This document shows, in pieces, positions 1 through 63,583 of a DNA stretch of 64,000 nucleotides (position 1 is its first letter; every line of letters begins with the position of its first letter). The DNA is from Morinoia aosen (lineage: Eukaryota; Arthropoda; Malacostraca; Amphipoda; Talitridae): the NCBI GenBank assembly GCA_030386875.1, contig JASJYW010000026.1, positions 15,270,246-15,334,245 on the forward strand. The letters are read 5' to 3'. A program made the translations under genes and the position numbers. A model generated the notes under the pieces. It was not told where the DNA came from and searched no databases. It worked only from the letters and a program-made list of their open reading frames with translations.

Positions 1-1056
1 GAGCCAGAGGCATACAATTGTTTATAAGTAGTCTCGGAGATTGTGCCCAAGCGTTTAATTTTGTTCAAGAATCTATTAATTTTATCTTCAAGTCTCACCA
101 CTGTATTTAACGGATCTAAGTTAGGCATAAGTTGAAATTTAGTTCCATCGGACAATATATTCATCATTTTTTGCACATAATCCATTTTATTCAATAGTAC
201 TACGCCTCTACCTTTATCCGGCGAACATACGACAATGGATTCATCCGAACCTAAGTTTTTTAGCGTGGCAATATCAGCCCTACTAAAAATTGGAGAAAAA
301 ACTCTATTCGCTCTAAAACCATAAAATGCAGCGGATGCCTTCTGTTTGACCAAATTTGCAACTAAGTCAAAATTTCCGTTTTCTACAATAGCACACCGAT
401 TTCAGCACTCTGATGAATTTCTCAATGGACAAAAAATATTTAAAAAAATTTAACTTTCTCACTGGTAGATTGAAATATAAACCAAATGACAATAAAAATC
501 TTTCTCTGCGCGACAAAGTACGATTTGAAAAATTGAAAATTACATCATCAGGGTTACATGAAGAGAGTGCGGATTTTACACCTAACTGGGACAATTTCCT
601 ATCGTGAGTCTGCTTCACAGTATCAATATATTTAACGGTTTTACGCTGTACAAACAGTTTAAGACTTGAAAAATCTAATGTACTGACTACGGTTGACAAA
701 GAATTTTGAATAGACAACAGTTGGGCTTCCAGTTGTTGAAGTCTGCGCTCCTTCTGTCGGATTTCCTGGTCGAGTAGCTGCTCCTGAAACTTCCGGTATG
801 CTTCAGTTTGTTGCAGATATTGCTTATATAGCTTAAAGGCTAGAAATTTTGGCACGACTTGGTACGCCTTGCAGCACACCAGATAGTGTAGATCCTGCTT
901 AGTTTTCGCCAGTTTTCGTGAACACTGCTCAAATTTTCGAAACCACAAAAGTCCATCTTGGCCATATCTATGACGTAAAATATCAGAAATTGGACGATTG
1001 GCAGGAAACCTAATTTTTAGTATAAAAAGAAACACAAGGGTCACAATAAAAATCAT
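1..1056 (-). pseudogene. Partial, frameshifted PLE RT-endonuclease copy at window edge
   Basis: The ATG at 1056 opens the same ORF as in the other units, but only about residues 1-352 lie inside the window. One extra C in the cacacc run at about 396-397 (other copies have cacac) shifts the frame after residue 220, so the uninterrupted frame ends at 367 after 229 codons. Positions 1-395 continue the homologous sequence in the shifted frame up to the fingers region of the RT, just before the GLAKVHK motif. Catalytic RT and GIY-YIG parts are outside the window. The indel is a single base and could be real or a sequencing error. Confidence 0.85.
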
Positions 1057-1248
1057 CTATTTGCACTCAGACCAGCTGGTTTCGACTTTTCATTTTCAAT
1101 GAATGCTTCTGAAACAAAAGGACAAAAATTTTTTTATACACTCAAAATTACAAAGTATTAAAAAAAAACACTTGTAACACTTCATAGGAAATTTACATGG
1201 GTCCTTGTTAAAAAATATATATAAAAAAAAAACGAAAACTAAACTAAA

Positions 1249-3759
1249 TCATTGGGTGTACAGGGGCACGGCAATTTGATCGGTGTTGAGCTGCGGTCTA
1301 TGTTTGGTTATATAAAGGGATTCTAAAATTCTAATATCTGACTCCTGAGCTGATCCTATGATTTCAAAATTATCTATAGAGAACGAATGATTGGTCTGTT
1401 CACAATGATGTCTGGGAGGAGAATGCGGCAAGGATGCTAGAGGCCGGTTTGTTCTGAAGGAACGGCCTATGTGTTGAAAAAATCTGATCTTCGACTGTTT
1501 CTGAGTGCTTCCGATATAAGAACTCTGGCAAGTTCCGCACGTAAATTTATAGACAATATTCGAAAGCAATTCAGAGGGCAGCCTGTCTTTATACCTAAAG
1601 AATTTTTTAATCTGGAAGTCATTCTTTAAAGCAAAAATAAAGTCAATCTGGGGGTAAAATTTAGATAGTAATTTCCTGAAATACCTAATCATTTCTTCAG
1701 ATGAGGGGCCTATGTAAGGAAGAGATATGTACACCTTACATTTACTTACTGTGCACAAGGTTTGTTTCGGACGAGAAAATATATTACATAAAAAATCACG
1801 GACAAGCCTGTCAAATAAACCGTGTGGATAGCCGTTGTCAGAAAAAAAAGATTTTAAAAAATCTAATTCGGAAGAAAAGTTGGAGTATGAGGAGGATAGG
1901 TTATATGCACGATGGAGAAGGGTCCGTATTGAATTAAGTTTATAGCGGAAGTGACAGAAACTGAAGAAACTGCAGCCTAACCCAGTAAAAGTTGGTTTGC
2001 GGTATACACTGGAAACGAAACCCTGCTCTGTTCTACTGATATTGAGATCTAAAAAAGGTAATCTATTGTTTTGTTCAGGTTCCATAGTAAAATTGATATT
2101 CGAATGATACTTATTGATATGATTTAGAAATAACGGAGCATGGGATTCATCTTCAAAGATTACAAATGTGTCATCCAAGTATCTTTTGTAAAACACAGGT
2201 TTAAAAAAATCAGGGCATTCCTCAAGGTACTTTTGTTCCATATTGCATAAAAAAATGTTAGCAAGAGTAGGCGCGATCGGGTTGCCCATCGATAAGCCAT
2301 CTATTTGTTTATACAGTTTTTGATTAAAAAAGAAATACGTCTCAGTAACTGCTAGTTTCAAGAAATGCATAAAACTCACATTATCAAACCCGTAAAATAA
2401 TTGACTAGATGAAAAACACTTATTGCACAACAATTGCAGAGTTTCTACGACTGGGATGTTTGTATACAAAGATTCAACGTCGAAGCTCGCCATGAAATGG
2501 TTAGATTTGCAAGGAAATTTCACAATATCATTGAAGAACGTATATGAATTCTTTACTGTATATTGATTGGTAGAATACGAGTCAATGAAAGGAATGAGAT
2601 ATTTTGCTAATTTGAACATAGAGGTATTGAAAGCTGCAAGAATTGGACGTAAAGGAACATTATTTTTATGAACTTTGGCCAGACCGTACAGAATTCCAGG
2701 AGATGAGCCAGAGGCATACAATTGTTTATAAGTAGTCTCGGAGATTGTGCCCAAGCGTTTAATTTTGTTCAAGAATCTATTAATTTTATCTTCAAGTCTC
2801 ACCACTGTATTTAACGGATCTAAGTTAGGCATAAGTTGAAATTTAGTTCCATCGGACAATATATTCATCATTTTTTGCACATAATCCATTTTATTCAATA
2901 GTACTACGCCTCTACCTTTATCCGGCGAACATACGACAATGGATTCATCCGAACCTAAGTTTTTTAGCGTGGCAATATCAGCCCTACTAAAAATTGGAGA
3001 AAAAACTCTATTCGCTCTAAAACCATAAAATGCAGCGGATGCCTTCTGTTTGACCAAATTTGCAACTAAGTCAAAATTTCCGTTTTCTACAATAGCACAC
3101 GATTTCAGCACTCTGATGAATTTCTCAATGGACAAAAAATATTTAAAAAAATTTAACTTTCTCACTGGTAGATTGAAATATAAACCAAATGACAATAAAA
3201 ATCTTTCTCTGCGCGACAAAGTACGATTTGAAAAATTGAAAATTACATCATCAGGGTTACATGAAGAGAGTGCGGATTTTACACCTAACTGGGACAATTT
3301 CCTATCGTGAGTCTGCTTCACAGTATCAATATATTTAACGGTTTTACGCTGTACAAACAGTTTAAGACTTGAAAAATCTAATGTACTGACTACGGTTGAC
3401 AAAGAATTTTGAATAGACAACAGTTGGGCTTCCAGTTGTTGAAGTCTGCGCTCCTTCTGTCGGATTTCCTGGTCGAGTAGCTGCTCCTGAAACTTCCGGT
3501 ATGCTTCAGTTTGTTGCAGATATTGCTTATATAGCTTAAAGGCTAGAAATTTTGGCACGACTTGGTACGCCTTGCAGCACACCAGATAGTGTAGATCCTG
3601 CTTAGTTTTCGCCAGTTTTCGTGAACACTGCTCAAATTTTCGAAACCACAAAAGTCCATCTTGGCCATATCTATGACGTAAAATATCAGAAATTGGACGA
3701 TTGGCAGGAAACCTAATTTTTAGTATAAAAAGAAACACAAGGGTCACAATAAAAATCAT
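1249..3759 (-). CDS. PLE reverse transcriptase / GIY-YIG endonuclease (intact)
   Basis: 836-aa ORF, first full unit of the minus array and equal to the majority sequence. See the entry at 39777-42287 for the domain-by-domain description. The ATG at 3759 is preceded directly by an in-frame TAG, so translation of this frame cannot start further upstream without splicing. The stop lies at 1249-1251. All catalytic positions (D427, YLDD 527-530, YIG 748-750, E813) are present, so the protein could be active. The next copy's ATG lies 192 bp beyond its stop. Penelope-like assignment is firm from RT motifs joined to a C-terminal GIY-YIG domain; expression is unknown. Confidence 0.93.
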   Translation of the reverse strand: MIFIVTLVFLFILKIRFPANRPISDILRHRYGQDGLLWFRKFEQCSRKLAKTKQDLHYLVCCKAYQVVPKFLAFKLYKQYLQQTEAYRKFQEQLLDQEIRQKERRLQQLEAQLLSIQNSLSTVVSTLDFSSLKLFVQRKTVKYIDTVKQTHDRKLSQLGVKSALSSCNPDDVIFNFSNRTLSRRERFLLSFGLYFNLPVRKLNFFKYFLSIEKFIRVLKSCAIVENGNFDLVANLVKQKASAAFYGFRANRVFSPIFSRADIATLKNLGSDESIVVCSPDKGRGVVLLNKMDYVQKMMNILSDGTKFQLMPNLDPLNTVVRLEDKINRFLNKIKRLGTISETTYKQLYASGSSPGILYGLAKVHKNNVPLRPILAAFNTSMFKLAKYLIPFIDSYSTNQYTVKNSYTFFNDIVKFPCKSNHFMASFDVESLYTNIPVVETLQLLCNKCFSSSQLFYGFDNVSFMHFLKLAVTETYFFFNQKLYKQIDGLSMGNPIAPTLANIFLCNMEQKYLEECPDFFKPVFYKRYLDDTFVIFEDESHAPLFLNHINKYHSNINFTMEPEQNNRLPFLDLNISRTEQGFVSSVYRKPTFTGLGCSFFSFCHFRYKLNSIRTLLHRAYNLSSSYSNFSSELDFLKSFFSDNGYPHGLFDRLVRDFLCNIFSRPKQTLCTVSKCKVYISLPYIGPSSEEMIRYFRKLLSKFYPQIDFIFALKNDFQIKKFFRYKDRLPSELLSNIVYKFTCGTCQSSYIGSTQKQSKIRFFQHIGRSFRTNRPLASLPHSPPRHHCEQTNHSFSIDNFEIIGSAQESDIRILESLYITKHRPQLNTDQIAVPLYTQ

Positions 3760-3765
3760 CTATTT

Positions 3766-3809
3766 GCACTCAGACCAGCTGGTTTCGACTTTTCATTTTC
3801 AATGAATGC
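3766..3809 (-). ncRNA. Hammerhead-like fold, minus-array example
   Basis: Same 44-nt element as at 39727-39770, read on the minus strand, 6 nt upstream of the ATG at 3759. Stem I, GAAA, the palindromic stem III and the UC before the cleavage point are identical, and so are the two deviations in the conserved core. In a read-through transcript of this array such elements would recur every 2702 nt. Confidence 0.38.
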
Positions 3810-3950
3810 TTCTGAAACAAAAGGACAAAAATTTTTTTATACACTCAAAATTACAAAGTATTAAAAAAAAACACTTGTAACACTTCATAGGAAATTTACA
3901 TGGGTCCTTGTTAAAAAATATATATAAAAAAAAACGAAAACTAAACTAAA

Positions 3951-6461
3951 TCATTGGGTGTACAGGGGCACGGCAATTTGATCGGTGTTGAGCTGCGGTC
4001 TATGTTTGGTTATATAAAGGGATTCTAAAATTCTAATATCTGACTCCTGAGCTGATCCTATGATTTCAAAATTATCTATAGAGAACGAATGATTGGTCTG
4101 TTCACAATGATGTCTGGGAGGAGAATGCGGCAAGGATGCTAGAGGCCGGTTTGTTCTGAAGGAACGGCCTATGTGTTGAAAAAATCTGATCTTCGACTGT
4201 TTCTGAGTGCTTCCGATATAAGAACTCTGGCAAGTTCCGCACGTAAATTTATAGACAATATTCGAAAGCAATTCAGAGGGCAGCCTGTCTTTATACCTAA
4301 AGAATTTTTTAATCTGGAAGTCATTCTTTAAAGCAAAAATAAAGTCAATCTGGGGGTAAAATTTAGATAGTAATTTCCTGAAATACCTAATCATTTCTTC
4401 AGATGAGGGGCCTATGTAAGGAAGAGATATGTACACCTTACATTTACTTACTGTGCACAAGGTTTGTTTCGGACGAGAAAATATATTACATAAAAAATCA
4501 CGGACAAGCCTGTCAAATAAACCGTGTGGATAGCCGTTGTCAGAAAAAAAAGATTTTAAAAAATCTAATTCGGAAGAAAAGTTGGAGTATGAGGAGGATA
4601 GGTTATATGCACGATGGAGAAGGGTCCGTATTGAATTAAGTTTATAGCGGAAGTGACAGAAACTGAAGAAACTGCAGCCTAACCCAGTAAAAGTTGGTTT
4701 GCGGTATACACTGGAAACGAAACCCTGCTCTGTTCTACTGATATTGAGATCTAAAAAAGGTAATCTATTGTTTTGTTCAGGTTCCATAGTAAAATTGATA
4801 TTCGAATGATACTTATTGATATGATTTAGAAATAACGGAGCATGGGATTCATCTTCAAAGATTACAAATGTGTCATCCAAGTATCTTTTGTAAAACACAG
4901 GTTTAAAAAAATCAGGGCATTCCTCAAGGTACTTTTGTTCCATATTGCATAAAAAAATGTTAGCAAGAGTAGGCGCGATCGGGTTGCCCATCGATAAGCC
5001 ATCTATTTGTTTATACAGTTTTTGATTAAAAAAGAAATACGTCTCAGTAACTGCTAGTTTCAAGAAATGCATAAAACTCACATTATCAAACCCGTAAAAT
5101 AATTGACTAGATGAAAAACACTTATTGCACAACAATTGCAGAGTTTCTACGACTGGGATGTTTGTATACAAAGATTCAACGTCGAAGCTCGCCATGAAAT
5201 GGTTAGATTTGCAAGGAAATTTCACAATATCATTGAAGAACGTATATGAATTCTTTACTGTATATTGATTGGTAGAATACGAGTCAATGAAAGGAATGAG
5301 ATATTTTGCTAATTTGAACATAGAGGTATTGAAAGCTGCAAGAATTGGACGTAAAGGAACATTATTTTTATGAACTTTGGCCAGACCGTACAGAATTCCA
5401 GGAGATGAGCCAGAGGCATACAATTGTTTATAAGTAGTCTCGGAGATTGTGCCCAAGCGTTTAATTTTGTTCAAGAATCTATTAATTTTATCTTCAAGTC
5501 TCACCACTGTATTTAACGGATCTAAGTTAGGCATAAGTTGAAATTTAGTTCCATCGGACAATATATTCATCATTTTTTGCACATAATCCATTTTATTCAA
5601 TAGTACTACGCCTCTACCTTTATCCGGCGAACATACGACAATGGATTCATCCGAACCTAAGTTTTTTAGCGTGGCAATATCAGCCCTACTAAAAATTGGA
5701 GAAAAAACTCTATTCGCTCTAAAACCATAAAATGCAGCGGATGCCTTCTGTTTGACCAAATTTGCAACTAAGTCAAAATTTCCGTTTTCTACAATAGCAC
5801 ACGATTTCAGCACTCTGATGAATTTCTCAATGGACAAAAAATATTTAAAAAAATTTAACTTTCTCACTGGTAGATTGAAATATAAACCAAATGACAATAA
5901 AAATCTTTCTCTGCGCGACAAAGTACGATTTGAAAAATTGAAAATTACATCATCAGGGTTACATGAAGAGAGTGCGGATTTTACACCTAACTGGGACAAT
6001 TTCCTATCGTGAGTCTGCTTCACAGTATCAATATATTTAACGGTTTTACGCTGTACAAACAGTTTAAGACTTGAAAAATCTAATGTACTGACTACGGTTG
6101 ACAAAGAATTTTGAATAGACAACAGTTGGGCTTCCAGTTGTTGAAGTCTGCGCTCCTTCTGTCGGATTTCCTGGTCGAGTAGCTGCTCCTGAAACTTCCG
6201 GTATGCTTCAGTTTGTTGCAGATATTGCTTATATAGCTTAAAGGCTAGAAATTTTGGCACGACTTGGTACGCCTTGCAGCACACCAGATAGTGTAGATCC
6301 TGCTTAGTTTTCGCCAGTTTTCGTGAACACTGCTCAAATTTTCGAAACCACAAAAGTCCATCTTGGCCATATCTATGACGTAAAATATCAGAAATTGGAC
6401 GATTGGCAGGAAACCTAATTTTTAGTATAAAAAGAAACACAAGGGTCACAATAAAAATCAT
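3951..6461 (-). CDS. PLE RT / GIY-YIG endonuclease (intact)
   Basis: Second full minus-strand unit, 836 aa, with the same translated protein as the copy at 1249-3759. It is separated from its neighbours by 191-bp spacers on both sides. There is no frameshift or stop, and the RT and endonuclease catalytic residues are all present. Identity to the adjacent copy points to very recent duplication, ongoing gene conversion, or a repeat assembled from the same reads. Confidence 0.92.
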   Translation of the reverse strand: MIFIVTLVFLFILKIRFPANRPISDILRHRYGQDGLLWFRKFEQCSRKLAKTKQDLHYLVCCKAYQVVPKFLAFKLYKQYLQQTEAYRKFQEQLLDQEIRQKERRLQQLEAQLLSIQNSLSTVVSTLDFSSLKLFVQRKTVKYIDTVKQTHDRKLSQLGVKSALSSCNPDDVIFNFSNRTLSRRERFLLSFGLYFNLPVRKLNFFKYFLSIEKFIRVLKSCAIVENGNFDLVANLVKQKASAAFYGFRANRVFSPIFSRADIATLKNLGSDESIVVCSPDKGRGVVLLNKMDYVQKMMNILSDGTKFQLMPNLDPLNTVVRLEDKINRFLNKIKRLGTISETTYKQLYASGSSPGILYGLAKVHKNNVPLRPILAAFNTSMFKLAKYLIPFIDSYSTNQYTVKNSYTFFNDIVKFPCKSNHFMASFDVESLYTNIPVVETLQLLCNKCFSSSQLFYGFDNVSFMHFLKLAVTETYFFFNQKLYKQIDGLSMGNPIAPTLANIFLCNMEQKYLEECPDFFKPVFYKRYLDDTFVIFEDESHAPLFLNHINKYHSNINFTMEPEQNNRLPFLDLNISRTEQGFVSSVYRKPTFTGLGCSFFSFCHFRYKLNSIRTLLHRAYNLSSSYSNFSSELDFLKSFFSDNGYPHGLFDRLVRDFLCNIFSRPKQTLCTVSKCKVYISLPYIGPSSEEMIRYFRKLLSKFYPQIDFIFALKNDFQIKKFFRYKDRLPSELLSNIVYKFTCGTCQSSYIGSTQKQSKIRFFQHIGRSFRTNRPLASLPHSPPRHHCEQTNHSFSIDNFEIIGSAQESDIRILESLYITKHRPQLNTDQIAVPLYTQ

Positions 6462-6652
6462 CTATTTGCACTCAGACCAGCTGGTTTCGACTTTTCATTT
6501 TCAATGAATGCTTCTGAAACAAAAGGACAAAAATTTTTTTATACACTCAAAATTACAAAGTATTAAAAAAAAACACTTGTAACACTTCATAGGAAATTTA
6601 CATGGGTCCTTGTTAAAAAATATATATAAAAAAAAACGAAAACTAAACTAAA

Positions 6653-9163
6653 TCATTGGGTGTACAGGGGCACGGCAATTTGATCGGTGTTGAGCTGCGG
6701 TCTATGTTTGGTTATATAAAGGGATTCTAAAATTCTAATATCTGACTCCTGAGCTGATCCTATGATTTCAAAATTATCTATAGAGAACGAATGATTGGTC
6801 TGTTCACAATGATGTCTGGGAGGAGAATGCGGCAAGGATGCTAGAGGCCGGTTTGTTCTGAAGGAACGGCCTATGTGTTGAAAAAATCTGATCTTCGACT
6901 GTTTCTGAGTGCTTCCGATATAAGAACTCTGGCAAGTTCCGCACGTAAATTTATAGACAATATTCGAAAGCAATTCAGAGGGCAGCCTGTCTTTATACCT
7001 AAAGAATTTTTTAATCTGGAAGTCATTCTTTAAAGCAAAAATAAAGTCAATCTGGGGGTAAAATTTAGATAGTAATTTCCTGAAATACCTAATCATTTCT
7101 TCAGATGAGGGGCCTATGTAAGGAAGAGATATGTACACCTTACATTTACTTACTGTGCACAAGGTTTGTTTCGGACGAGAAAATATATTACATAAAAAAT
7201 CACGGACAAGCCTGTCAAATAAACCGTGTGGATAGCCGTTGTCAGAAAAAAAAGATTTTAAAAAATCTAATTCGGAAGAAAAGTTGGAGTATGAGGAGGA
7301 TAGGTTATATGCACGATGGAGAAGGGTCCGTATTGAATTAAGTTTATAGCGGAAGTGACAGAAACTGAAGAAACTGCAGCCTAACCCAGTAAAAGTTGGT
7401 TTGCGGTATACACTGGAAACGAAACCCTGCTCTGTTCTACTGATATTGAGATCTAAAAAAGGTAATCTATTGTTTTGTTCAGGTTCCATAGTAAAATTGA
7501 TATTCGAATGATACTTATTGATATGATTTAGAAATAACGGAGCATGGGATTCATCTTCAAAGATTACAAATGTGTCATCCAAGTATCTTTTGTAAAACAC
7601 AGGTTTAAAAAAATCAGGGCATTCCTCAAGGTACTTTTGTTCCATATTGCATAAAAAAATGTTAGCAAGAGTAGGCGCGATCGGGTTGCCCATCGATAAG
7701 CCATCTATTTGTTTATACAGTTTTTGATTAAAAAAGAAATACGTCTCAGTAACTGCTAGTTTCAAGAAATGCATAAAACTCACATTATCAAACCCGTAAA
7801 ATAATTGACTAGATGAAAAACACTTATTGCACAACAATTGCAGAGTTTCTACGACTGGGATGTTTGTATACAAAGATTCAACGTCGAAGCTCGCCATGAA
7901 ATGGTTAGATTTGCAAGGAAATTTCACAATATCATTGAAGAACGTATATGAATTCTTTACTGTATATTGATTGGTAGAATACGAGTCAATGAAAGGAATG
8001 AGATATTTTGCTAATTTGAACATAGAGGTATTGAAAGCTGCAAGAATTGGACGTAAAGGAACATTATTTTTATGAACTTTGGCCAGACCGTACAGAATTC
8101 CAGGAGATGAGCCAGAGGCATACAATTGTTTATAAGTAGTCTCGGAGATTGTGCCCAAGCGTTTAATTTTGTTCAAGAATCTATTAATTTTATCTTCAAG
8201 TCTCACCACTGTATTTAACGGATCTAAGTTAGGCATAAGTTGAAATTTAGTTCCATCGGACAATATATTCATCATTTTTTGCACATAATCCATTTTATTC
8301 AATAGTACTACGCCTCTACCTTTATCCGGCGAACATACGACAATGGATTCATCCGAACCTAAGTTTTTTAGCGTGGCAATATCAGCCCTACTAAAAATTG
8401 GAGAAAAAACTCTATTCGCTCTAAAACCATAAAATGCAGCGGATGCCTTCTGTTTGACCAAATTTGCAACTAAGTCAAAATTTCCGTTTTCTACAATAGC
8501 ACACGATTTCAGCACTCTGATGAATTTCTCAATGGACAAAAAATATTTAAAAAAATTTAACTTTCTCACTGGTAGATTGAAATATAAACCAAATGACAAT
8601 AAAAATCTTTCTCTGCGCGACAAAGTACGATTTGAAAAATTGAAAATTACATCATCAGGGTTACATGAAGAGAGTGCGGATTTTACACCTAACTGGGACA
8701 ATTTCCTATCGTGAGTCTGCTTCACAGTATCAATATATTTAACGGTTTTACGCTGTACAAACAGTTTAAGACTTGAAAAATCTAATGTACTGACTACGGT
8801 TGACAAAGAATTTTGAATAGACAACAGTTGGGCTTCCAGTTGTTGAAGTCTGCGCTCCTTCTGTCGGATTTCCTGGTCGAGTAGCTGCTCCTGAAACTTC
8901 CGGTATGCTTCAGTTTGTTGCAGATATTGCTTATATAGCTTAAAGGCTAGAAATTTTGGCACGACTTGGTACGCCTTGCAGCACACCAGATAGTGTAGAT
9001 CCTGCTTAGTTTTCGCCAGTTTTCGTGAACACTGCTCAAATTTTCGAAACCACAAAAGTCCATCTTGGCCATATCTATGACGTAAAATATCAGAAATTGG
9101 ACGATTGGCAGGAAACCTAATTTTTAGTATAAAAAGAAACACAAGGGTCACAATAAAAATCAT
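6653..9163 (-). CDS. PLE RT / GIY-YIG endonuclease (intact)
   Basis: Third full minus-strand unit, 836 aa, translated protein identical to the majority sequence. The ATG at 9163 follows the in-frame TAG seen in every unit. The RT palm and the GIY-YIG domain are complete. I see nothing that distinguishes it from its left neighbour. Confidence 0.92.
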   Translation of the reverse strand: MIFIVTLVFLFILKIRFPANRPISDILRHRYGQDGLLWFRKFEQCSRKLAKTKQDLHYLVCCKAYQVVPKFLAFKLYKQYLQQTEAYRKFQEQLLDQEIRQKERRLQQLEAQLLSIQNSLSTVVSTLDFSSLKLFVQRKTVKYIDTVKQTHDRKLSQLGVKSALSSCNPDDVIFNFSNRTLSRRERFLLSFGLYFNLPVRKLNFFKYFLSIEKFIRVLKSCAIVENGNFDLVANLVKQKASAAFYGFRANRVFSPIFSRADIATLKNLGSDESIVVCSPDKGRGVVLLNKMDYVQKMMNILSDGTKFQLMPNLDPLNTVVRLEDKINRFLNKIKRLGTISETTYKQLYASGSSPGILYGLAKVHKNNVPLRPILAAFNTSMFKLAKYLIPFIDSYSTNQYTVKNSYTFFNDIVKFPCKSNHFMASFDVESLYTNIPVVETLQLLCNKCFSSSQLFYGFDNVSFMHFLKLAVTETYFFFNQKLYKQIDGLSMGNPIAPTLANIFLCNMEQKYLEECPDFFKPVFYKRYLDDTFVIFEDESHAPLFLNHINKYHSNINFTMEPEQNNRLPFLDLNISRTEQGFVSSVYRKPTFTGLGCSFFSFCHFRYKLNSIRTLLHRAYNLSSSYSNFSSELDFLKSFFSDNGYPHGLFDRLVRDFLCNIFSRPKQTLCTVSKCKVYISLPYIGPSSEEMIRYFRKLLSKFYPQIDFIFALKNDFQIKKFFRYKDRLPSELLSNIVYKFTCGTCQSSYIGSTQKQSKIRFFQHIGRSFRTNRPLASLPHSPPRHHCEQTNHSFSIDNFEIIGSAQESDIRILESLYITKHRPQLNTDQIAVPLYTQ

Positions 9164-9354
9164 CTATTTGCACTCAGACCAGCTGGTTTCGACTTTTCAT
9201 TTTCAATGAATGCTTCTGAAACAAAAGGACAAAAATTTTTTTATACACTCAAAATTACAAAGTATTAAAAAAAAACACTTGTAACACTTCATAGGAAATT
9301 TACATGGGTCCTTGTTAAAAAATATATATAAAAAAAAACGAAAACTAAACTAAA

Positions 9355-38884: not shown

Positions 38885-39060
38885 CTATTTGCACTCAGAC
38901 CAGCTGGTTTCGACTTTTCATTTTCAATGAATGCTTCTGAAACAAAAGGACAAAAATTTTTTTATACACTCAAAATTACAAAGTATTAAAAAAAAACACT
39001 TGTAACACTTCATAGGAAATTTACATGGGTCCTTGTTAAAAAATATATATAAAAAAAAAA

Positions 39061-39139
39061 CGATTTCAGCACTCTGATGAATTTCTCAATGGACAAAAAA
39101 TATTTAAAAAAATTTAACTTTCTCACTGGTAGATTGAAA
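39061..39139 (-). mobile_element. PLE scrap in junction (ORF codons ~193-219)
   Basis: These 79 bp match the interior of the minus-orientation ORF (for example 3101-3179) and are joined directly to the end of the leader at about 39060. The two parental sequences share acga at the join, a 4-bp microhomology. The scrap has the same orientation as the left array but is out of its normal order. It encodes no usable protein by itself. Confidence 0.85.
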
Positions 39140-39213
39140 ACACTGAATCCGTCAAGCCTCCGATGTTGAGCATTCATCGAGATGGCTTTTCATTCCACGT
39201 TCCACGTTTGTGC
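39140..39213. other. 74-bp non-PLE filler at the inversion breakpoint
   Basis: This stretch matches no part of the PLE unit. It separates the minus-oriented scrap (39061-39139) from plus-oriented PLE sequence. Its first bases (about 39138-39151) share a 14-bp match with the region near 63.67 kb at the other end of the window. Filler DNA of this kind is typical of end joining or replication template switching. An open frame running through it from 39163 is accidental. Confidence 0.7.
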
Positions 39214-39585
39214 TTCCAGTGTATACCGCAATTCTTTAGGTATAAAGACAGGCTGCCCTCTGAATTGCTTTCGAATATTGTCTATAAATTTACGTGCGGA
39301 ACTTGCCAGAGTTCTTATATCGGAAGCACTCAGAAACAGTCGAAGATCAGATTTTTTCAACACATAGGCCGTTCCTTCAGAACAAACCGGCCTCTAGCAT
39401 CCTTGCCGCATTCTCCTCCCAGACATCATTGTGAACAGACCAATCATTCGTTCTCTATAGATAATTTTGAAATCATAGGATCAGCTCAGGAGTCAGATAT
39501 TAGAATTTTAGAATCCCTTTATATAACCAAACATAGACCGCAGCTCAACACCGATCAAATTGCCGTGCCCCTGTACACCCAATGA
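39214..39585 (+). pseudogene. 5'-truncated, internally deleted PLE copy (endonuclease end only)
   Basis: The first plus-strand PLE sequence is a 17-bp piece (39214-39230) matching the VYRKPT-coding region. It is fused to the frame for FRYKDRLPSELL..., skipping about 0.4 kb; the join shares aa. From 39231 to the stop at 39585 it encodes residues ~720-836, that is the CxxC (C741/C744), YIG, E813 and PxLN parts of the GIY-YIG domain. It has no RT and no native start codon. Downstream it has a normal 191-bp spacer leading into the intact unit at 39777. This copy marks the switch of orientation. Confidence 0.85.
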
Positions 39586-39609
39586 TTTAGTTTAGTTTTC
39601 GTTTTTTTT

Positions 39610-39618
39610 TATATATAT
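39610..39618 (+). promoter_or_regulatory. TATA-like stretch in the PLE spacer
   Basis: A TATATATAT run sits after a T tract about 160 nt upstream of the ATG and occurs in every spacer (minus-strand example: about 3918-3926). PLE pseudo-LTRs are expected to carry the promoter, and this is the only TATA-like element in the spacer. In so AT-rich a sequence it could be chance; no initiator can be placed. Confidence 0.25.
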
Positions 39619-39636
39619 TTTTTAACAAGGACCCAT

Positions 39637-39724
39637 GTAAATTTCCTATGAAGTGTTACAAGTGTTTTTTTTTAATACTTTGTAATTTTGAGTGTATAAA
39701 AAAATTTTTGTCCTTTTGTTTCAG
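39637..39724 (+). other. Candidate 88-nt intron in the PLE 5' leader
   Basis: A GTAAAT donor-like site follows acccat, and 88 nt later a strong pyrimidine-rich acceptor (ttttgtccttttgtttcag) ends at 39724. The Drosophila virilis Penelope element is known to carry a short intron (about 75 nt) in its 5' region, so size and place fit. The plus-strand array ends within this candidate (47765). Splicing would join a short 5' exon to the segment that begins with the hammerhead-like fold. The donor is not a perfect consensus and there is no RNA evidence. Minus-strand equivalent: 3812-3899. Confidence 0.35.
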
Positions 39725-39726
39725 AA

Positions 39727-39770
39727 GCATTCATTGAAAATGAAAAGTCGAAACCAGCTGGTCTGAGTGC
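39727..39770 (+). ncRNA. Hammerhead-ribozyme-like fold upstream of PLE ATG (core degenerate)
   Basis: Type I hammerhead layout: stem I GCAUUCA (39727-39733) pairs with UGAGUGC (39764-39770, one G-U). Between them are UUGAAAA where CUGANGA is expected, then GUC-GAAA, the self-complementary stem III ACCAGCUGGU, and UC just before the predicted cleavage point (39763/39764), 13 nt before the ATG. PLEs are known to encode hammerheads in their pseudo-LTRs. Against activity: core positions C3 and G8 are U and A, and stem II has no clear 5' strand. The same 44 nt are found in every spacer. Minus-strand copies are at 1063-1106, 6468-6511, 9170-9213, 11872-11915, 14574-14617, 17276-17319, 19978-20021, 22679-22722, 25380-25423, 28083-28126, 30784-30827, 33486-33529, 36188-36231 and 38891-38934. 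Plus-strand copies are at 42441-42484 and 45144-45187. Confidence 0.4.
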
Positions 39771-39776
39771 AAATAG

Positions 39777-42287
39777 ATGATTTTTATTGTGACCCTTGTG
39801 TTTCTTTTTATACTAAAAATTAGGTTTCCTGCCAATCGTCCAATTTCTGATATTTTACGTCATAGATATGGCCAAGATGGACTTTTGTGGTTTCGAAAAT
39901 TTGAGCAGTGTTCACGAAAACTGGCGAAAACTAAGCAGGATCTACACTATCTGGTGTGCTGCAAGGCGTACCAAGTCGTGCCAAAATTTCTAGCCTTTAA
40001 GCTATATAAGCAATATCTGCAACAAACTGAAGCATACCGGAAGTTTCAGGAGCAGCTACTCGACCAGGAAATCCGACAGAAGGAGCGCAGACTTCAACAA
40101 CTGGAAGCCCAACTGTTGTCTATTCAAAATTCTTTGTCAACCGTAGTCAGTACATTAGATTTTTCAAGTCTTAAACTGTTTGTACAGCGTAAAACCGTTA
40201 AATATATTGATACTGTGAAGCAGACTCACGATAGGAAATTGTCCCAGTTAGGTGTAAAATCCGCACTCTCTTCATGTAACCCTGATGATGTAATTTTCAA
40301 TTTTTCAAATCGTACTTTGTCGCGCAGAGAAAGATTTTTATTGTCATTTGGTTTATATTTCAATCTACCAGTGAGAAAGTTAAATTTTTTTAAATATTTT
40401 TTGTCCATTGAGAAATTCATCAGAGTGCTGAAATCGTGTGCTATTGTAGAAAACGGAAATTTTGACTTAGTTGCAAATTTGGTCAAACAGAAGGCATCCG
40501 CTGCATTTTATGGTTTTAGAGCGAATAGAGTTTTTTCTCCAATTTTTAGTAGGGCTGATATTGCCACGCTAAAAAACTTAGGTTCGGATGAATCCATTGT
40601 CGTATGTTCGCCGGATAAAGGTAGAGGCGTAGTACTATTGAATAAAATGGATTATGTGCAAAAAATGATGAATATATTGTCCGATGGAACTAAATTTCAA
40701 CTTATGCCTAACTTAGATCCGTTAAATACAGTGGTGAGACTTGAAGATAAAATTAATAGATTCTTGAACAAAATTAAACGCTTGGGCACAATCTCCGAGA
40801 CTACTTATAAACAATTGTATGCCTCTGGCTCATCTCCTGGAATTCTGTACGGTCTGGCCAAAGTTCATAAAAATAATGTTCCTTTACGTCCAATTCTTGC
40901 AGCTTTCAATACCTCTATGTTCAAATTAGCAAAATATCTCATTCCTTTCATTGACTCGTATTCTACCAATCAATATACAGTAAAGAATTCATATACGTTC
41001 TTCAATGATATTGTGAAATTTCCTTGCAAATCTAACCATTTCATGGCGAGCTTCGACGTTGAATCTTTGTATACAAACATCCCAGTCGTAGAAACTCTGC
41101 AATTGTTGTGCAATAAGTGTTTTTCATCTAGTCAATTATTTTACGGGTTTGATAATGTGAGTTTTATGCATTTCTTGAAACTAGCAGTTACTGAGACGTA
41201 TTTCTTTTTTAATCAAAAACTGTATAAACAAATAGATGGCTTATCGATGGGCAACCCGATCGCGCCTACTCTTGCTAACATTTTTTTATGCAATATGGAA
41301 CAAAAGTACCTTGAGGAATGCCCTGATTTTTTTAAACCTGTGTTTTACAAAAGATACTTGGATGACACATTTGTAATCTTTGAAGATGAATCCCATGCTC
41401 CGTTATTTCTAAATCATATCAATAAGTATCATTCGAATATCAATTTTACTATGGAACCTGAACAAAACAATAGATTACCTTTTTTAGATCTCAATATCAG
41501 TAGAACAGAGCAGGGTTTCGTTTCCAGTGTATACCGCAAGCCAACTTTTACTGGGTTAGGCTGCAGTTTCTTCAGTTTCTGTCACTTCCGCTATAAACTT
41601 AATTCAATACGGACCCTTCTCCATCGTGCATATAACCTATCCTCCTCATACTCCAACTTTTCTTCCGAATTAGATTTTTTAAAATCTTTTTTTTCTGACA
41701 ACGGCTATCCACACGGTTTATTTGACAGGCTTGTCCGTGATTTTTTATGTAATATATTTTCTCGTCCGAAACAAACCTTGTGCACAGTAAGTAAATGTAA
41801 GGTGTACATATCTCTTCCTTACATAGGCCCCTCATCTGAAGAAATGATTAGGTATTTCAGGAAATTACTATCTAAATTTTACCCCCAGATTGACTTTATT
41901 TTTGCTTTAAAGAATGACTTCCAGATTAAAAAATTCTTTAGGTATAAAGACAGGCTGCCCTCTGAATTGCTTTCGAATATTGTCTATAAATTTACGTGCG
42001 GAACTTGCCAGAGTTCTTATATCGGAAGCACTCAGAAACAGTCGAAGATCAGATTTTTTCAACACATAGGCCGTTCCTTCAGAACAAACCGGCCTCTAGC
42101 ATCCTTGCCGCATTCTCCTCCCAGACATCATTGTGAACAGACCAATCATTCGTTCTCTATAGATAATTTTGAAATCATAGGATCAGCTCAGGAGTCAGAT
42201 ATTAGAATTTTAGAATCCCTTTATATAACCAAACATAGACCGCAGCTCAACACCGATCAAATTGCCGTGCCCCTGTACACCCAATGA
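39777..42287 (+). CDS. PLE reverse transcriptase / GIY-YIG endonuclease (intact; reference copy)
   Basis: 836-aa retroelement polyprotein that would copy its RNA into DNA at a nicked target. Order: hydrophobic segment (residues 2-14), Gln/Glu-rich coiled coil (~80-125), then the PLE RT with SPDKGRGVVLL (278-288), GLAKVHK (359-365), RPILAAF (371-377), motif A FDVESLYTNIP (D427), motif B GLSMGNPIAPTLANIF (488-503), motif C YLDD (527-530), LPFLDLNI (567-574) and VYRKPT (585-590). A C-terminal GIY-YIG endonuclease follows: C741/C744, YIG 748-750, H763, an H/C cluster 784-791, E813 and PxLN 822-825. RT plus GIY-YIG in this order defines endonuclease-bearing PLEs, and the length is usual for the family. 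The ATG is preceded directly by in-frame TAG. The copy has a silent change at K588 (AAG). Activity is inferred. Confidence 0.95.
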   Translation: MIFIVTLVFLFILKIRFPANRPISDILRHRYGQDGLLWFRKFEQCSRKLAKTKQDLHYLVCCKAYQVVPKFLAFKLYKQYLQQTEAYRKFQEQLLDQEIRQKERRLQQLEAQLLSIQNSLSTVVSTLDFSSLKLFVQRKTVKYIDTVKQTHDRKLSQLGVKSALSSCNPDDVIFNFSNRTLSRRERFLLSFGLYFNLPVRKLNFFKYFLSIEKFIRVLKSCAIVENGNFDLVANLVKQKASAAFYGFRANRVFSPIFSRADIATLKNLGSDESIVVCSPDKGRGVVLLNKMDYVQKMMNILSDGTKFQLMPNLDPLNTVVRLEDKINRFLNKIKRLGTISETTYKQLYASGSSPGILYGLAKVHKNNVPLRPILAAFNTSMFKLAKYLIPFIDSYSTNQYTVKNSYTFFNDIVKFPCKSNHFMASFDVESLYTNIPVVETLQLLCNKCFSSSQLFYGFDNVSFMHFLKLAVTETYFFFNQKLYKQIDGLSMGNPIAPTLANIFLCNMEQKYLEECPDFFKPVFYKRYLDDTFVIFEDESHAPLFLNHINKYHSNINFTMEPEQNNRLPFLDLNISRTEQGFVSSVYRKPTFTGLGCSFFSFCHFRYKLNSIRTLLHRAYNLSSSYSNFSSELDFLKSFFSDNGYPHGLFDRLVRDFLCNIFSRPKQTLCTVSKCKVYISLPYIGPSSEEMIRYFRKLLSKFYPQIDFIFALKNDFQIKKFFRYKDRLPSELLSNIVYKFTCGTCQSSYIGSTQKQSKIRFFQHIGRSFRTNRPLASLPHSPPRHHCEQTNHSFSIDNFEIIGSAQESDIRILESLYITKHRPQLNTDQIAVPLYTQ

Positions 42288-42490
42288 TTTAGTTTAGTTT
42301 TCGTTTTTTTTTATATATATTTTTTAACAAGGACCCATGTAAATTTCCTATGAAGTGTTACAAGTGTTTTTTTTTTTTTTTTTTTTAATACTTTGTAATT
42401 TTGAGTGTATAAAAAAATTTTTTGTCCTTTTGTTTCAGAAGCATTCATTGAAAATGAAAAGTCGAAACCAGCTGGTCTGAGTGCAAATAG
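42288..42490 (+). repeat. Spacer variant with expanded T tract (203 bp)
   Basis: Compared with the 191-bp form this spacer is 12 bp longer. The T run after ttacaagtg (from about 42366) is about doubled, and a second T run after aaaaaa has one extra T. The putative acceptor, hammerhead-like fold and ATG context are unchanged. It is a mononucleotide length change, either slippage in the genome or a base-calling error. Confidence 0.8.
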
Positions 42491-45002
42491 ATGATTTTTA
42501 TTGTGACCCTTGTGTTTCTTTTTATACTAAAAATTAGGTTTCCTGCCAATCGTCCAATTTCTGATATTTTACGTCATAGATATGGCCAAGATGGACTTTT
42601 GTGGTTTCGAAAATTTGAGCAGTGTTCACGAAAACTGGCGAAAACTAAGCAGGATCTACACTATCTGGTGTGCTGCAAGGCGTACCAAGTCGTGCCAAAA
42701 TTTCTAGCCTTTAAGCTATATAAGCAATATCTGCAACAAACTGAAGCATACCGGAAGTTTCAGGAGCAGCTACTCGACCAGGAAATCCGACAGAAGGAGC
42801 GCAGACTTCAACAACTGGAAGCCCAACTGTTGTCTATTCAAAATTCTTTGTCAACCGTAGTCAGTACATTAGATTTTTCAAGTCTTAAACTGTTTGTACA
42901 GCGTAAAACCGTTAAATATATTGATACTGTGAAGCAGACTCACGAAAGGAAATTGTCCCAGTTAGGTGTAAAATCCGCACTCTCTTCATGTAACCCTGAT
43001 GATGTAATTTTCAATTTTTCAAATCGTACTTTGTCGCGCAGAGAAAGATTTTTATTGTCATTTGGTTTATATTTCAATCTACCAGTGAGAAAGTTAAATT
43101 TTTTTAAATATTTTTTGTCCATTGAGAAATTCATCAGAGTGCTGAAATCGTGTGCTATTGTAGAAAACGGAAATTTTGACTTAGTTGCAAATTTGGTCAA
43201 ACAGAAGGCATCCGCTGCATTTTATGGTTTTAGAGCGAATAGAGTTTTTTCTCCAATTTTTAGTAGGGCTGATATTGCCACGCTAAAAAACTTAGGTTCG
43301 GATGAATCCATTGTCGTATGTTCGCCGGATAAAGGTAGAGGCGTAGTACTATTGAATAAAATGGATTATGTGCAAAAAATGATGAATATATTGTCCGATG
43401 GAACTAAATTTCAACTTATGCCTAACTTAGATCCGTTAAATACAGTGGTGAGACTTGAAGATAAAATTAATAGATTCTTGAACAAAATTAAACGCTTGGG
43501 CACAATCTCCGAGACTACTTATAAACAATTGTATGCCTCTGGCTCATCTCCTGGAATTCTGTACGGTCTGGCCAAAGTTCATAAAAATAATGTTCCTTTA
43601 CGTCCAATTCTTGCAGCTTTCAATACCTCTATGTTCAAATTAGCAAAATATCTCATTCCTTTCATTGACTCGTATTCTACCAATCAATATACAGTAAAGA
43701 ATTCATATACGTTCTTCAATGATATTGTGAAATTTCCTTGCAAATCTAACCATTTCATGGCGAGCTTCGACGTTGAATCTTTGTATACAAACATCCCAGT
43801 CGTAGAAACTCTGCAATTGTTGTGCAATAAGTGTTTTTCATCTAGTCAATTATTTTACGGGTTTGATAATGTGAGTTTTATGCATTTCTTGAAACTAGCA
43901 GTTACTGAGACGTATTTCTTTTTTAATCAAAAACTGTATAAACAAATAGATGGCTTATCGATGGGCAACCCGATCGCGCCTACTCTTGCTAACATTTTTT
44001 TATGCAATATGGAACAAAAGTACCTTGAGGAATGCCCTGATTTTTTTAAACCTGTGTTTTACAAAAGATACTTGGATGACACATTTGTAATCTTTGAAGA
44101 TGAATCCCATGCTCCGTTATTTCTAAATCATATCAATAAGTATCATTCGAATATCAATTTTACTATGGAACCTGAACAAAACAATAGATTACCTTTTTTA
44201 GATCTCAATATCAGTAGAACAGAGCAGGGTTTCGTTTCCAGTGTATACCGCAAACCAACTTTTACTGGGTTAGGCTGCAGTTTCTTCAGTTTCTGTCACT
44301 TCCGCTATAAACTTAATTCAATACGGACCCTTCTCCATCGTGCATATAACCTATCCTCCTCATACTCCAACTTTTCTTCCGAATTAGATTTTTTAAAATC
44401 TTTTTTTTTCTGACAACGGCTATCCACACGGTTTATTTGACAGGCTTGTCCGTGATTTTTTATGTAATATATTTTCTCGTCCGAAACAAACCTTGTGCAC
44501 AGTAAGTAAATGTAAGGTGTACATATCTCTTCCTTACATAGGCCCCTCATCTGAAGAAATGATTAGGTATTTCAGGAAATTACTATCTAAATTTTACCCC
44601 CAGATTGACTTTATTTTTGCTTTAAAGAATGACTTCCAGATTAAAAAATTCTTTAGGTATAAAGACAGGCTGCCCTCTGAATTGCTTTCGAATATTGTCT
44701 ATAAATTTACGTGCGGAACTTGCCAGAGTTCTTATATCGGAAGCACTCAGAAACAGTCGAAGATCAGATTTTTTCAACACATAGGCCGTTCCTTCAGAAC
44801 AAACCGGCCTCTAGCATCCTTGCCGCATTCTCCTCCCAGACATCATTGTGAACAGACCAATCATTCGTTCTCTATAGATAATTTTGAAATCATAGGATCA
44901 GCTCAGGAGTCAGATATTAGAATTTTAGAATCCCTTTATATAACCAAACATAGACCGCAGCTCAACACCGATCAAATTGCCGTGCCCCTGTACACCCAAT
45001 GA
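42491..45002 (+). pseudogene. PLE RT / GIY-YIG copy with 1-nt insertion in a T run
   Basis: Second full plus-strand unit. One extra T in the run at 44401-44410 shifts the frame at about residue 640, so the frame from 42491 ends at 44413 after 640 codons. All RT motifs through VYRKPT are retained, but the endonuclease falls in another frame (to the stop at 45002). It also has D152E just after the coiled coil. Because the break falls in a homopolymer it may be a sequencing error. If real, it makes an RT-only protein. Confidence 0.88.
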
Positions 45003-45193
45003 TTTAGTTTAGTTTTCGTTTTTTTTTATATATATTTTTTAACAAGGACCCATGTAAATTTCCTATGAAGTGTTACAAGTGTTTTTTTTTAATACTTTGT
45101 AATTTTGAGTGTATAAAAAAATTTTTGTCCTTTTGTTTCAGAAGCATTCATTGAAAATGAAAAGTCGAAACCAGCTGGTCTGAGTGCAAATAG

Positions 45194-47704
45194 ATGATTT
45201 TTATTGTGACCCTTGTGTTTCTTTTTATACTAAAAATTAGGTTTCCTGCCAATCGTCCAATTTCTGATATTTTACGTCATAGATATGGCCAAGATGGACT
45301 TTTGTGGTTTCGAAAATTTGAGCAGTGTTCACGAAAACTGGCGAAAACTAAGCAGGATCTACACTATCTGGTGTGCTGCAAGGCGTACCAAGTCGTGCCA
45401 AAATTTCTAGCCTTTAAGCTATATAAGCAATATCTGCAACAAACTGAAGCATACCGGAAGTTTCAGGAGCAGCTACTCGACCAGGAAATCCGACAGAAGG
45501 AGCGCAGACTTCAACAACTGGAAGCCCAACTGTTGTCTATTCAAAATTCTTTGTCAACCGTAGTCAGTACATTAGATTTTTCAAGTCTTAAACTGTTTGT
45601 ACAGCGTAAAACCGTTAAATATATTGATACTGTGAAGCAGACTCACGATAGGAAATTGTCCCAGTTAGGTGTAAAATCCGCACTCTCTTCATGTAACCCT
45701 GATGATGTAATTTTCAATTTTTCAAATCGTACTTTGTCGCGCAGAGAAAGATTTTTATTGTCATTTGGTTTATATTTCAATCTACCAGTGAGAAAGTTAA
45801 ATTTTTTTAAATATTTTTTGTCCATTGAGAAATTCATCAGAGTGCTGAAATCGTGTGCTATTGTAGAAAACGGAAATTTTGACTTAGTTGCAAATTTGGT
45901 CAAACAGAAGGCATCCGCTGCATTTTATGGTTTTAGAGCGAATAGAGTTTTTTCTCCAATTTTTAGTAGGGCTGATATTGCCACGCTAAAAAACTTAGGT
46001 TCGGATGAATCCATTGTCGTATGTTCGCCGGATAAAGGTAGAGGCGTAGTACTATTGAATAAAATGGATTATGTGCAAAAAATGATGAATATATTGTCCG
46101 ATGGAACTAAATTTCAACTTATGCCTAACTTAGATCCGTTAAATACAGTGGTGAGACTTGAAGATAAAATTAATAGATTCTTGAACAAAATTAAACGCTT
46201 GGGCACAATCTCCGAGACTACTTATAAACAATTGTATGCCTCTGGCTCATCTCCTGGAATTCTGTACGGTCTGGCCAAAGTTCATAAAAATAATGTTCCT
46301 TTACGTCCAATTCTTGCAGCTTTCAATACCTCTATGTTCAAATTAGCAAAATATCTCATTCCTTTCATTGACTCGTATTCTACCAATCAATATACAGTAA
46401 AGAATTCATATACGTTCTTCAATGATATTGTGAAATTTCCTTGCAAATCTAACCATTTCATGGCGAGCTTCGACGTTGAATCTTTGTATACAAACATCCT
46501 AGTCGTAGAAACTCTGCAATTGTTGTGCAATAAGTGTTTTTCATCTAGTCAATTATTTTACGGGTTTGATAATGTGAGTTTTATGCATTTCTTGAAACTA
46601 GCAGTTACTGAGACGTATTTCTTTTTTAATCAAAAACTGTATAAACAAATAGATGGCTTATCGATGGGCAACCCGATCGCGCCTACTCTTGCTAACATTT
46701 TTTTATGCAATATGGAACAAAAGTACCTTGAGGAATGCCCTGATTTTTTTAAACCTGTGTTTTACAAAAGATACTTGGATGACACATTTGTAATCTTTGA
46801 AGATGAATCCCATGCTCCGTTATTTCTAAATCATATCAATAAGTATCATTCGAATATCAATTTTACTATGGAACCTGAACAAAACAATAGATTACCTTTT
46901 TTAGATCTCAATATCAGTAGAACAGAGCAGGGTTTCGTTTCCAGTGTATACCGCAAACCAACTTTTACTGGGTTAGGCTGCAGTTTCTTCAGTTTCTGTC
47001 ACTTCCGCTATAAACTTAATTCAATACGGACCCTTCTCCATCGTGCATATAACCTATCCTCCTCATACTCCAACTTTTCTTCCGAATTAGATTTTTTAAA
47101 ATCTTTTTTTTCTGACAACGGCTATCCACACGGTTTATTTGACAGGCTTGTCCGTGATTTTTTATGTAATATATTTTCTCGTCCGAAACAAACCTTGTGC
47201 ACAGTAAGTAAATGTAAGGTGTACATATCTCTTCCTTACATAGGCCCCTCATCTGAAGAAATGATTAGGTATTTCAGGAAATTACTATCTAAATTTTACC
47301 CCCAGATTGACTTTATTTTTGCTTTAAAGAATGACTTCCAGATTAAAAAATTCTTTAGGTATAAAGACAGGCTGCCCTCTGAATTGCTTTCGAATATTGT
47401 CTATAAATTTACGTGCGGAACTTGCCAGAGTTCTTATATCGGAAGCACTCAGAAACAGTCGAAGATCAGATTTTTTCAACACATAGGCCGTTCCTTCAGA
47501 ACAAACCGGCCTCTAGCATCCTTGCCGCATTCTCCTCCCAGACATCATTGTGAACAGACCAATCATTCGTTCTCTATAGATAATTTTGAAATCATAGGAT
47601 CAGCTCAGGAGTCAGATATTAGAATTTTAGAATCCCTTTATATAACCAAACATAGACCGCAGCTCAACACCGATCAAATTGCCGTGCCCCTGTACACCCA
47701 ATGA
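45194..47704 (+). CDS. PLE RT / GIY-YIG endonuclease (ORF intact, P436L in motif A)
   Basis: Third full plus-strand unit and the last PLE ORF, 836 aa. It has one private change, P436L, at the end of motif A (TNIL instead of TNIP), nine residues after the catalytic D427. The proline is part of the FDVxSLYTNIP signature of PLE RTs, so activity may be reduced. The 61-nt tail after the stop ends at 47765. Confidence 0.92.
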   Translation: MIFIVTLVFLFILKIRFPANRPISDILRHRYGQDGLLWFRKFEQCSRKLAKTKQDLHYLVCCKAYQVVPKFLAFKLYKQYLQQTEAYRKFQEQLLDQEIRQKERRLQQLEAQLLSIQNSLSTVVSTLDFSSLKLFVQRKTVKYIDTVKQTHDRKLSQLGVKSALSSCNPDDVIFNFSNRTLSRRERFLLSFGLYFNLPVRKLNFFKYFLSIEKFIRVLKSCAIVENGNFDLVANLVKQKASAAFYGFRANRVFSPIFSRADIATLKNLGSDESIVVCSPDKGRGVVLLNKMDYVQKMMNILSDGTKFQLMPNLDPLNTVVRLEDKINRFLNKIKRLGTISETTYKQLYASGSSPGILYGLAKVHKNNVPLRPILAAFNTSMFKLAKYLIPFIDSYSTNQYTVKNSYTFFNDIVKFPCKSNHFMASFDVESLYTNILVVETLQLLCNKCFSSSQLFYGFDNVSFMHFLKLAVTETYFFFNQKLYKQIDGLSMGNPIAPTLANIFLCNMEQKYLEECPDFFKPVFYKRYLDDTFVIFEDESHAPLFLNHINKYHSNINFTMEPEQNNRLPFLDLNISRTEQGFVSSVYRKPTFTGLGCSFFSFCHFRYKLNSIRTLLHRAYNLSSSYSNFSSELDFLKSFFSDNGYPHGLFDRLVRDFLCNIFSRPKQTLCTVSKCKVYISLPYIGPSSEEMIRYFRKLLSKFYPQIDFIFALKNDFQIKKFFRYKDRLPSELLSNIVYKFTCGTCQSSYIGSTQKQSKIRFFQHIGRSFRTNRPLASLPHSPPRHHCEQTNHSFSIDNFEIIGSAQESDIRILESLYITKHRPQLNTDQIAVPLYTQ

Positions 47705-47765
47705 TTTAGTTTAGTTTTCGTTTTTTTTTTTATATATATTTTTTAACAAGGACCCATGTAAATTT

Positions 47766-49303: not shown

Positions 49304-49307
49304 AATA

Positions 49308-63581: not shown

Positions 63582-63583
63582 TA

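Follow-up and report, generated by a model that had tools for sequence, protein, structure and literature searches.

A 49.6-kb tandem array of Penelope-like elements in the amphipod Morinoia aosen, probably copied from one RNA in a two-sided insertion

The closest described counterparts of the locus considered here, a tandem array of Penelope-like elements (PLEs) in the amphipod Morinoia aosen, are Penelope of Adineta vaga, Poseidon of Anolis and the retrozymes of metazoans. Adineta vaga Penelope carries direct and inverted pseudo-long terminal repeats (pseudo-LTRs), forms partial tandems and is flanked by duplications of 8–10 bp; long tandem and inverted repeats prevented some of its elements from being assembled whole, and self-priming on an antisense template has been proposed for it (PMC3846280). 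Purified Anolis Poseidon protein cuts and extends both target strands, its reverse transcriptase (RT) using two adjacent starts inside the RNA, most commonly 111–118 into the open reading frame (ORF), that match the genomic ‘tail’; this in vitro work ends at the first cuts and extensions, with later steps left for validation (PMC11167929). Circular RNA templates, with PLEs as the candidate enzyme, have been proposed for retrozymes, whose tandems reach 62 units (PMC7229834), and minimal hammerhead ribozymes are described as frequent in PLEs (PMC7761336). The array lies in a window of 64,000 nt (contig JASJYW010000026.1, hereafter C26:15270246-15334245; “the window” means this whole stretch), and its sequence was compared with the 1.99-Gb genome assembly of 29 contigs.

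We read the array as one PLE insertion rather than a satellite, made by two-sided target-primed reverse transcription that lapped one RNA, probably a circular one, and we give this reading a probability of about 0.6. It is drawn from the presence of two arms in inverted, tail-out order, from target duplications, coupled arm starts and arm-shared variants at sister loci, and from a constant boundary of miniature tandem units. Like Penelope and Poseidon (PMC3846280, PMC11167929), the repeated unit has a single ORF of ~840 aa with an RT and a possibly GIY-YIG-like C-terminus, a copy of the ORF start region downstream (pseudo-LTR), an inverted head-to-head partial copy, and RT starts that would lie within the RNA, early in the ORF. 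Unlike them, as far as those accounts go, it shows at least 18 full-unit laps in one insertion, arms that demonstrably share template variants, start zones that also lie past the stop codon, mini-unit tandems bounded at a fixed motif, and no hammerhead detectable with Rfam. A literature search, resting on titles, abstracts and passages of text, found no report of such an array or of such start couplings.

Units follow one another head to tail at start-to-start distances of 2701–2703 bp (with a single exception of 2714), are 99.48–100% identical to the reference unit (positions on which are given below as “ref”), and each consist of an 836-aa ORF, open or broken, and a spacer of ~191 bp. An earlier note on this DNA, made from its letters alone, had described 14 minus-strand and 3 plus-strand units of 2.7 kb with the ORF open in 12 of the 17, and had named an endonuclease-bearing PLE; the counts were reproduced and the identification fits the evidence. 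Its placement of the array at 1–47765 held for the right end; on the left, the array goes on for 1,844 bp beyond the window start until it runs into a gap of 500 Ns (C26:15267902-15268401), so that 17 units is a lower bound. With this extension it measures 49.6 kb altogether; the minus-strand arm makes at least 15.1 laps and the plus-strand arm 3.15, and in the latter two complete units are followed by a last one that stops at ref 2571, 60 bp past the stop codon. The claim that no foreign DNA separates the units stood within each arm and failed at the strand switch, which holds a displaced PLE fragment and filler (Table 1).

Table 1 Features of the array and its right flank, in window coordinates (a slash in a motif marks the bond discussed in the text)
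Feature	Position	Strand	Details
Left arm	1-39063	-	partial unit 1-1056; 14 complete units 1058-38884; 5′ stub 38886-39063 (ref 2525-2702)
Example open ORF	1249-3759	-	836 aa; RT motif YLDD at 527; YIGST, resembling GIY-YIG, at 748
Example inter-ORF spacer	3760-3950	-	191 bp; holds candidate RNA end site GGTC/TGAG, bond between 3773 and 3772; next ATG 13 nt on
Displaced PLE fragment at strand switch	39060-39139	-	ref 582-661
Strand-switch filler	39140-39229		39141-39204 (64 nt) matches clustered repeats on C21, C15, C14 and C26 at 100% identity
Right arm	39230-47765	+	5′-truncated piece 39230-39775 (ref from 2156); three units 39777-47765
Target DNA	47766-49474		lies in a multi-copy repeat that spans 3.2 kb or more

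From its RT domain and the arrangement of its arms, together with a C-terminus that may be GIY-YIG-like, we class the repeated element as a PLE. Pfam RVT_1 matched the ORF (E=3e-10; 40.6 bits vs a cutoff of 29.6), and GIY-YIG was the top Pfam match of the C-terminal 138 aa at E=0.045, under the curated cutoff; a Pfam search with the whole protein gave no GIY-YIG match at E≤1, and Foldseek with a single-sequence model of the putative endonuclease region (predicted local distance difference test score 65) gave no match at E≤0.001. When the whole ORF was searched against PDB sequences, two proteins without characterisation matched weakly (E=0.0037 and 0.065). The hallmark PLE arrangement is present, namely a tandem or partial tandem with pseudo-LTR together with an inverted head-to-head copy.

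More than 30 insertions of this family, many of them young, are present in the genome, and 22 loci were fetched, some in part. Both strands occur at 19 of the 22, and at every one of these 19 the order is tail-out, with the minus-strand arm on the left, the plus-strand arm on the right, 3′ ends outward and 5′ ends meeting centrally. Another 14 pairs, known by coordinates only, are tail-out as well, and among the sites listed (the best candidates, or exact matches to one pattern) no pair in reverse order lies within 10 kb. The outer flanks share a stretch of 11–16 bp, which may include a few bases common with the element, at 13 of 16 loci tested, compared with a maximum of 9 bp in 240 mismatched junction pairs; the duplications of Penelope and Poseidon are given as 8–10 bp (PMC3846280, PMC11167929). 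By eye, the flanks of two small loci (C3s and C6s) share 10–11 bp. The constancy of the tail-out order, together with these duplications, identifies the double arm as the ordinary insertion product of the family, and the array in the window seems to be an extreme form of it; among loci of full-length units read to both ends, no arm other than the window's exceeds ~3.7 laps.

The two arms of an insertion start at coupled positions. Of 15 two-armed loci that could be read at both ends, 14 have starts offset by 33–61 nt on the template (mean 47). This comparison omits C26, C26b, C2s and C18, each with one end unread, and takes C21a as the exception, although C21a lay outside the computed table. 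Absolute starts span ~1.26 kb of template, from ref 1605 to 161 nt beyond the next ATG, and each is uncertain by a few nucleotides, since element and flank often have bases in common. Nine loci start past the next ATG, at +22 to +161, and for loci of this zone random re-pairing of arms gave p=1.5e-5 (9 loci) or 1.1e-4 (8 loci). A further start zone, ~63–124 nt beyond the stop codon, contains four loci read on both arms (C17, C20, C11 and C6s; ref 2574–2635), and the start of the window's right arm lies 3 nt from it; C16 starts at 1605/1640 and the one-armed C19 at 2660. By analogy, the +22 to +161 starts with their offset read as an in vivo counterpart of the paired Poseidon starts, and the offset may be set beside the optional 30–40 bp ‘tail’ of Penelope and Poseidon (PMC3846280, PMC11167929). 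Self-priming alone would not predict coupled outer starts.

At 6 of 17 loci the inner (5′) ends of the two arms lie no more than 45 nt apart (p=1.3e-5 if ends are taken as uniform), as if both enzymes had run off one RNA end; C6s and C18, in which short units make coincidence uninformative, were omitted. Five of the six coincident loci have less than one lap, and 8 of the 11 with differing inner ends have an arm of more than one lap, which is, marginally, the pattern that linear versus circular templates would give. End points and lap numbers for the start and inner-end tests were entered by hand from locus readings. The two arms of an insertion can also have variants in common. The variant 2540T has eight exact sites genome-wide, all of them in the C5 insertion, four per arm, in all units that cover the position. 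Variants common to both arms occur at C4, C6b, C25 and C11 too, some of them being subfamily variants found also in older copies, which our table of young variants includes only as remarks. Coupled starts, coinciding inner ends and arm-shared variants together argue for one RNA per insertion, and for this PLE family the sequences give good support to two-sided insertion from a single RNA.

Evidence on the form of this RNA comes from loci with miniature units. At C6:3.87 Mb a 176-bp unit (ref 2515-2690) makes up both arms. Each arm has six junctions, at which GGTC is joined to AGTTTAG (11 of the 12) or AGTTAAG (one); with up to one mismatch allowed, the junction has 12 sites genome-wide, all at this locus. 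The tandem unit at C18:40.28 Mb is 655 bp long (ref 2036-2690), with a different 5′ point and a 3′ boundary again at GGTC/, and the one-strand insertion C19 starts at TGAGTG, the other side of the same bond, exactly or within 3 nt. Being private to one locus, present on both of its arms, lacking a resident tandem source in this assembly and left unexplained by later growth of one arm, the 176-bp junction was most likely already in the template. The simplest such template would probably be an RNA cut at GGUC/UGAG and closed into a circle, which would be full-length where that cut made both ends and small where the 5′ end was broken elsewhere; an enzyme that, on reaching the 5′ end of a single RNA, jumped back to its 3′ end again and again would leave traces matching those of a circular template. 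We infer that GGUC/UGAG is a recurrent RNA end, and make no claim of a ribozyme. Metazoan non-LTR retrozymes likewise form short tandem units, of 150–450 bp, for which reverse transcription from circular RNA has been proposed with PLEs suggested as the enzyme source (PMC7229834, PMC7761336). Unlike retrozymes, the 176- and 655-bp units are PLE pieces found at one locus each and in two inverted arms, the window array is made of a full-length coding unit, and no canonical type I hammerhead was found in the window spacer.

In the most far-reaching form of this reading, to which we assign even odds, rolling-circle reverse transcription, target-primed and two-sided, is how this autonomous PLE replicates: a protein dimer would hold a cut and closed element RNA, each half would cut one target strand and start on that RNA ~45 nt from the other, and both would then circle it for as many as 15 laps or more. 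In our main reading, the element protein would cut both target strands with a short stagger, and each cut end would prime reverse transcription inside the same element RNA, ~45 nt apart. Two minus-strand cDNAs would then grow toward each other and be joined at their 5′ (template) ends, which would yield the tail-out inverted arms and target-site duplications of the sister loci. Were the RNA cut at GGUC/UGAG and closed into a circle by a putative cleaving activity, it would offer no usable 5′ end, and the RT would keep circling, laying down exact head-to-tail units. In the window insertion, copying would have made no fewer than 15 rounds for the left arm and 3 for the right, after which the strand switch would have captured an internal PLE fragment and other sequence. 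Rolling-circle copying had been one of the options listed in the earlier note, and it fits this evidence. LINE-1 twin priming likewise places two primers on one RNA and yields an inverted structure, in which the element 3′ end is not known from more than one arm; unlike that process, here both arms have the element 3′ end, and several laps are possible.

The idea that a satellite was being born here, by amplification of a resident unit, is not supported. The array resembles satellite DNA in its head-to-tail, near-identical units; it differs in that the family occurs as discrete insertions with target duplications in many places, has open ORFs and forms only one long array that we found. A satellite would lack insertion hallmarks and be homogenised, whereas the sister loci repeat the same layout and carry such hallmarks, the mini-units indicate laps made on the template, and no substitution is common to several window units. 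Of the scattered single-base differences noted earlier, 11 are substitutions (in 49.5 kb of aligned array), every one private to a single unit, and most of the others concern homopolymer length and may be sequencing noise. The left arm has eight substitutions; 10 of its 14 complete units carry none, and private ones are present in the other four and in all three right-arm units. Under a continuous duplication model, the probability that all eight left-arm substitutions are private is 0.010, 0.025 and 0.052 for 1, 3 and 5 founders, respectively. Since gradual unequal exchange tends to spread substitutions among units, it is disfavoured as the main driver (P=0.01–0.05). The all-private pattern favours a single burst, short of proof, and we lean towards a single event for the left arm of at least 15 laps; recombination may nevertheless have added or removed units later.

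Such later change is the core of one rival explanation, in which a two-sided insertion of a few units per arm was followed by growth of the left arm through unequal exchange or slipped repair, making the array an early satellite. In its favour, 15 laps are far beyond the maximum of ~3.7 for other fully read arms, the arms at C16 differ by about one unit with end points that otherwise match, as recombination between direct repeats would give, and the array adjoins a 119-bp satellite. The private left-arm substitutions speak against it, except for growth soon after insertion, which escapes that test, and we judge the explanation unlikely. We regard as somewhat more doubtful still that a tandem source locus gave a linear read-through RNA of several units, which was then copied into the arms. 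Tandem PLE loci in Anolis, with multi-copy mRNA described or proposed (PMC11167929), offer a precedent, and C19, with three units on one strand and a 5′ end ~13 nt ahead of the ATG, is what a linear trimer would give. Against such a source, no other array of 15 or more units is seen; of 92 exact spacer sites (altered copies, such as eight at C5, being uncounted), 20 are here, and the next-largest cluster, of 10, is a mini-unit locus. The 11 private window substitutions are, moreover, absent from the 12 other loci compared, and the 176-bp junction and 2540T are each confined to their own insertion and so have no resident source in the assembly.

The unit number might also be an artefact, a few real units having been expanded by the assembler. 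The contig does end within the array at the 500-N gap, next to 1.65 kb with six gap openings, a density expected where a contig end has poor support, and 10 of the 14 complete left-arm units are indistinguishable by substitution; the private substitutions of the remaining left-arm and right-arm units, and the two-strand multi-lap layout with target duplications at other loci of the same assembly, make this improbable. Least credible, and by our estimate very improbable, is an origin at the DNA level, from extrachromosomal circular DNA or break-induced copying followed by integration. Seamless tandem units would be expected from it too, but it predicts neither the coupled starts nor the 11–16 bp duplications, nor the 5′ truncation of both arms, nor the fixed GGTC/ boundary.

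Several points weigh against a one-insertion, probably circular-template origin. The left flank of the window array lies in the assembly gap, where a target duplication and a coupled start are unreadable; C21a misfits, with starts at 40/1895 and no duplication; flank sharing at C14 (8 bp), C21a (4 bp) and C21b (5 bp) is within the control range; and C19, C14 and C21b are one-stranded. Inner ends do not coincide at 11 of 17 loci, and their link to lap number is marginal (Fisher p=0.05). The ranges of 33–61 and 45 nt were drawn from the tested data, which makes the p values optimistic. Units at six loci (C26, C9, C17, C19, C20 and C14) have no substitution in common, and these loci are uninformative on a common template. 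The test against gradual duplication is weak, and assembly errors would look private too. Rfam reported no hammerhead in the window at gathering scores or in 3500–4300 at E≤10, the CTGANGA half of the motif is absent near the GGTC site, and the spacer fold is no more stable than shuffles (z-score 0.09). The segment GAAA-CCAGCTGG-TC near the GGTC site, and GAAACCAGCTGGTC before the GGTC bond, resemble a hammerhead 3′ half; the CUGANGA half is missing nearby.

On a one-RNA origin, insertion end points would provide a readout of PLE integration (one RNA, two starts ~45 nt apart, laps and a fixed RNA end), and the circular-template idea becomes directly testable. It would offer a reason for tandem and inverted PLE loci, and hints at how short tandem repeats could come from a retroelement. 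If rolling-circle reverse transcription is correct, tandem PLE loci would be direct insertion products, and mini-circles broken off that RNA would seed new short tandem repeats.

The target DNA to the right of the array belongs to a multi-copy repeat, for which 40 of 1,541 first-look candidates were scored. Other copies of this repeat cross the position of the right junction without interruption (BLAST, eight loci). Its left half does not adjoin the array in the assembly, so that either sequence of both target and array is hidden in the gap or the scaffold was joined wrongly. Further right lies a 119-bp tandem repeat (49475-63412; 117 copies, 95% match), and the 12.6 kb read to the left of the 500-N gap is all 119-bp satellite matching it. 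A direct repeat of ~170 bp (49306-49475 and 63413-63582) brackets the satellite block, its first copy running on from the multi-copy repeat that holds the PLE array. About 19 kb downstream (C26:15337345, L035) the multi-copy repeat, the 170 bp and the 119-bp satellite follow one another in this order again, with a 1.7-kb repeat part that is 99.8% identical; the region may be a larger duplicated block.

Some smaller features of the family were also recorded. In the strand-switch filler of the window, 39141-39204 has a 98% match on C4 and seems to have been captured from a repeat family or a repeated gene, and the last bases of the filler resemble, by eye, a short stretch of the PLE unit. Just upstream of the GGTC site in the spacer, CTTTTGTTTCAG is splice-acceptor-like, and at least one C25 arm is without three bases there. 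A pattern scan, giving coordinates only, located GGTC/ followed by non-T at C4:63.12 and C14:15.94 Mb, and G before TGAG at C20:49.92 and C23:24.58 Mb. In the centre of the C17:40.59 Mb locus (L029), the two arms extend to ~6 nt short of the ATG, and several imperfect copies of TAGATGATTTTTATT connect them, which looks like stuttering of the enzyme at the RNA 5′ end. At C6:96.385-96.391 Mb (L022/L023), a single PLE unit is split by ~6 kb of other DNA, likely a later insertion, with 12 bp (ref 436-447) duplicated. Finally, the centre of C4:73.8 Mb (L024) contains a 28-nt filler identical to the DNA directly past the right end of C21a and C21b (L018 and L019), which suggests read-through or co-packaged RNA from the C21 locus.

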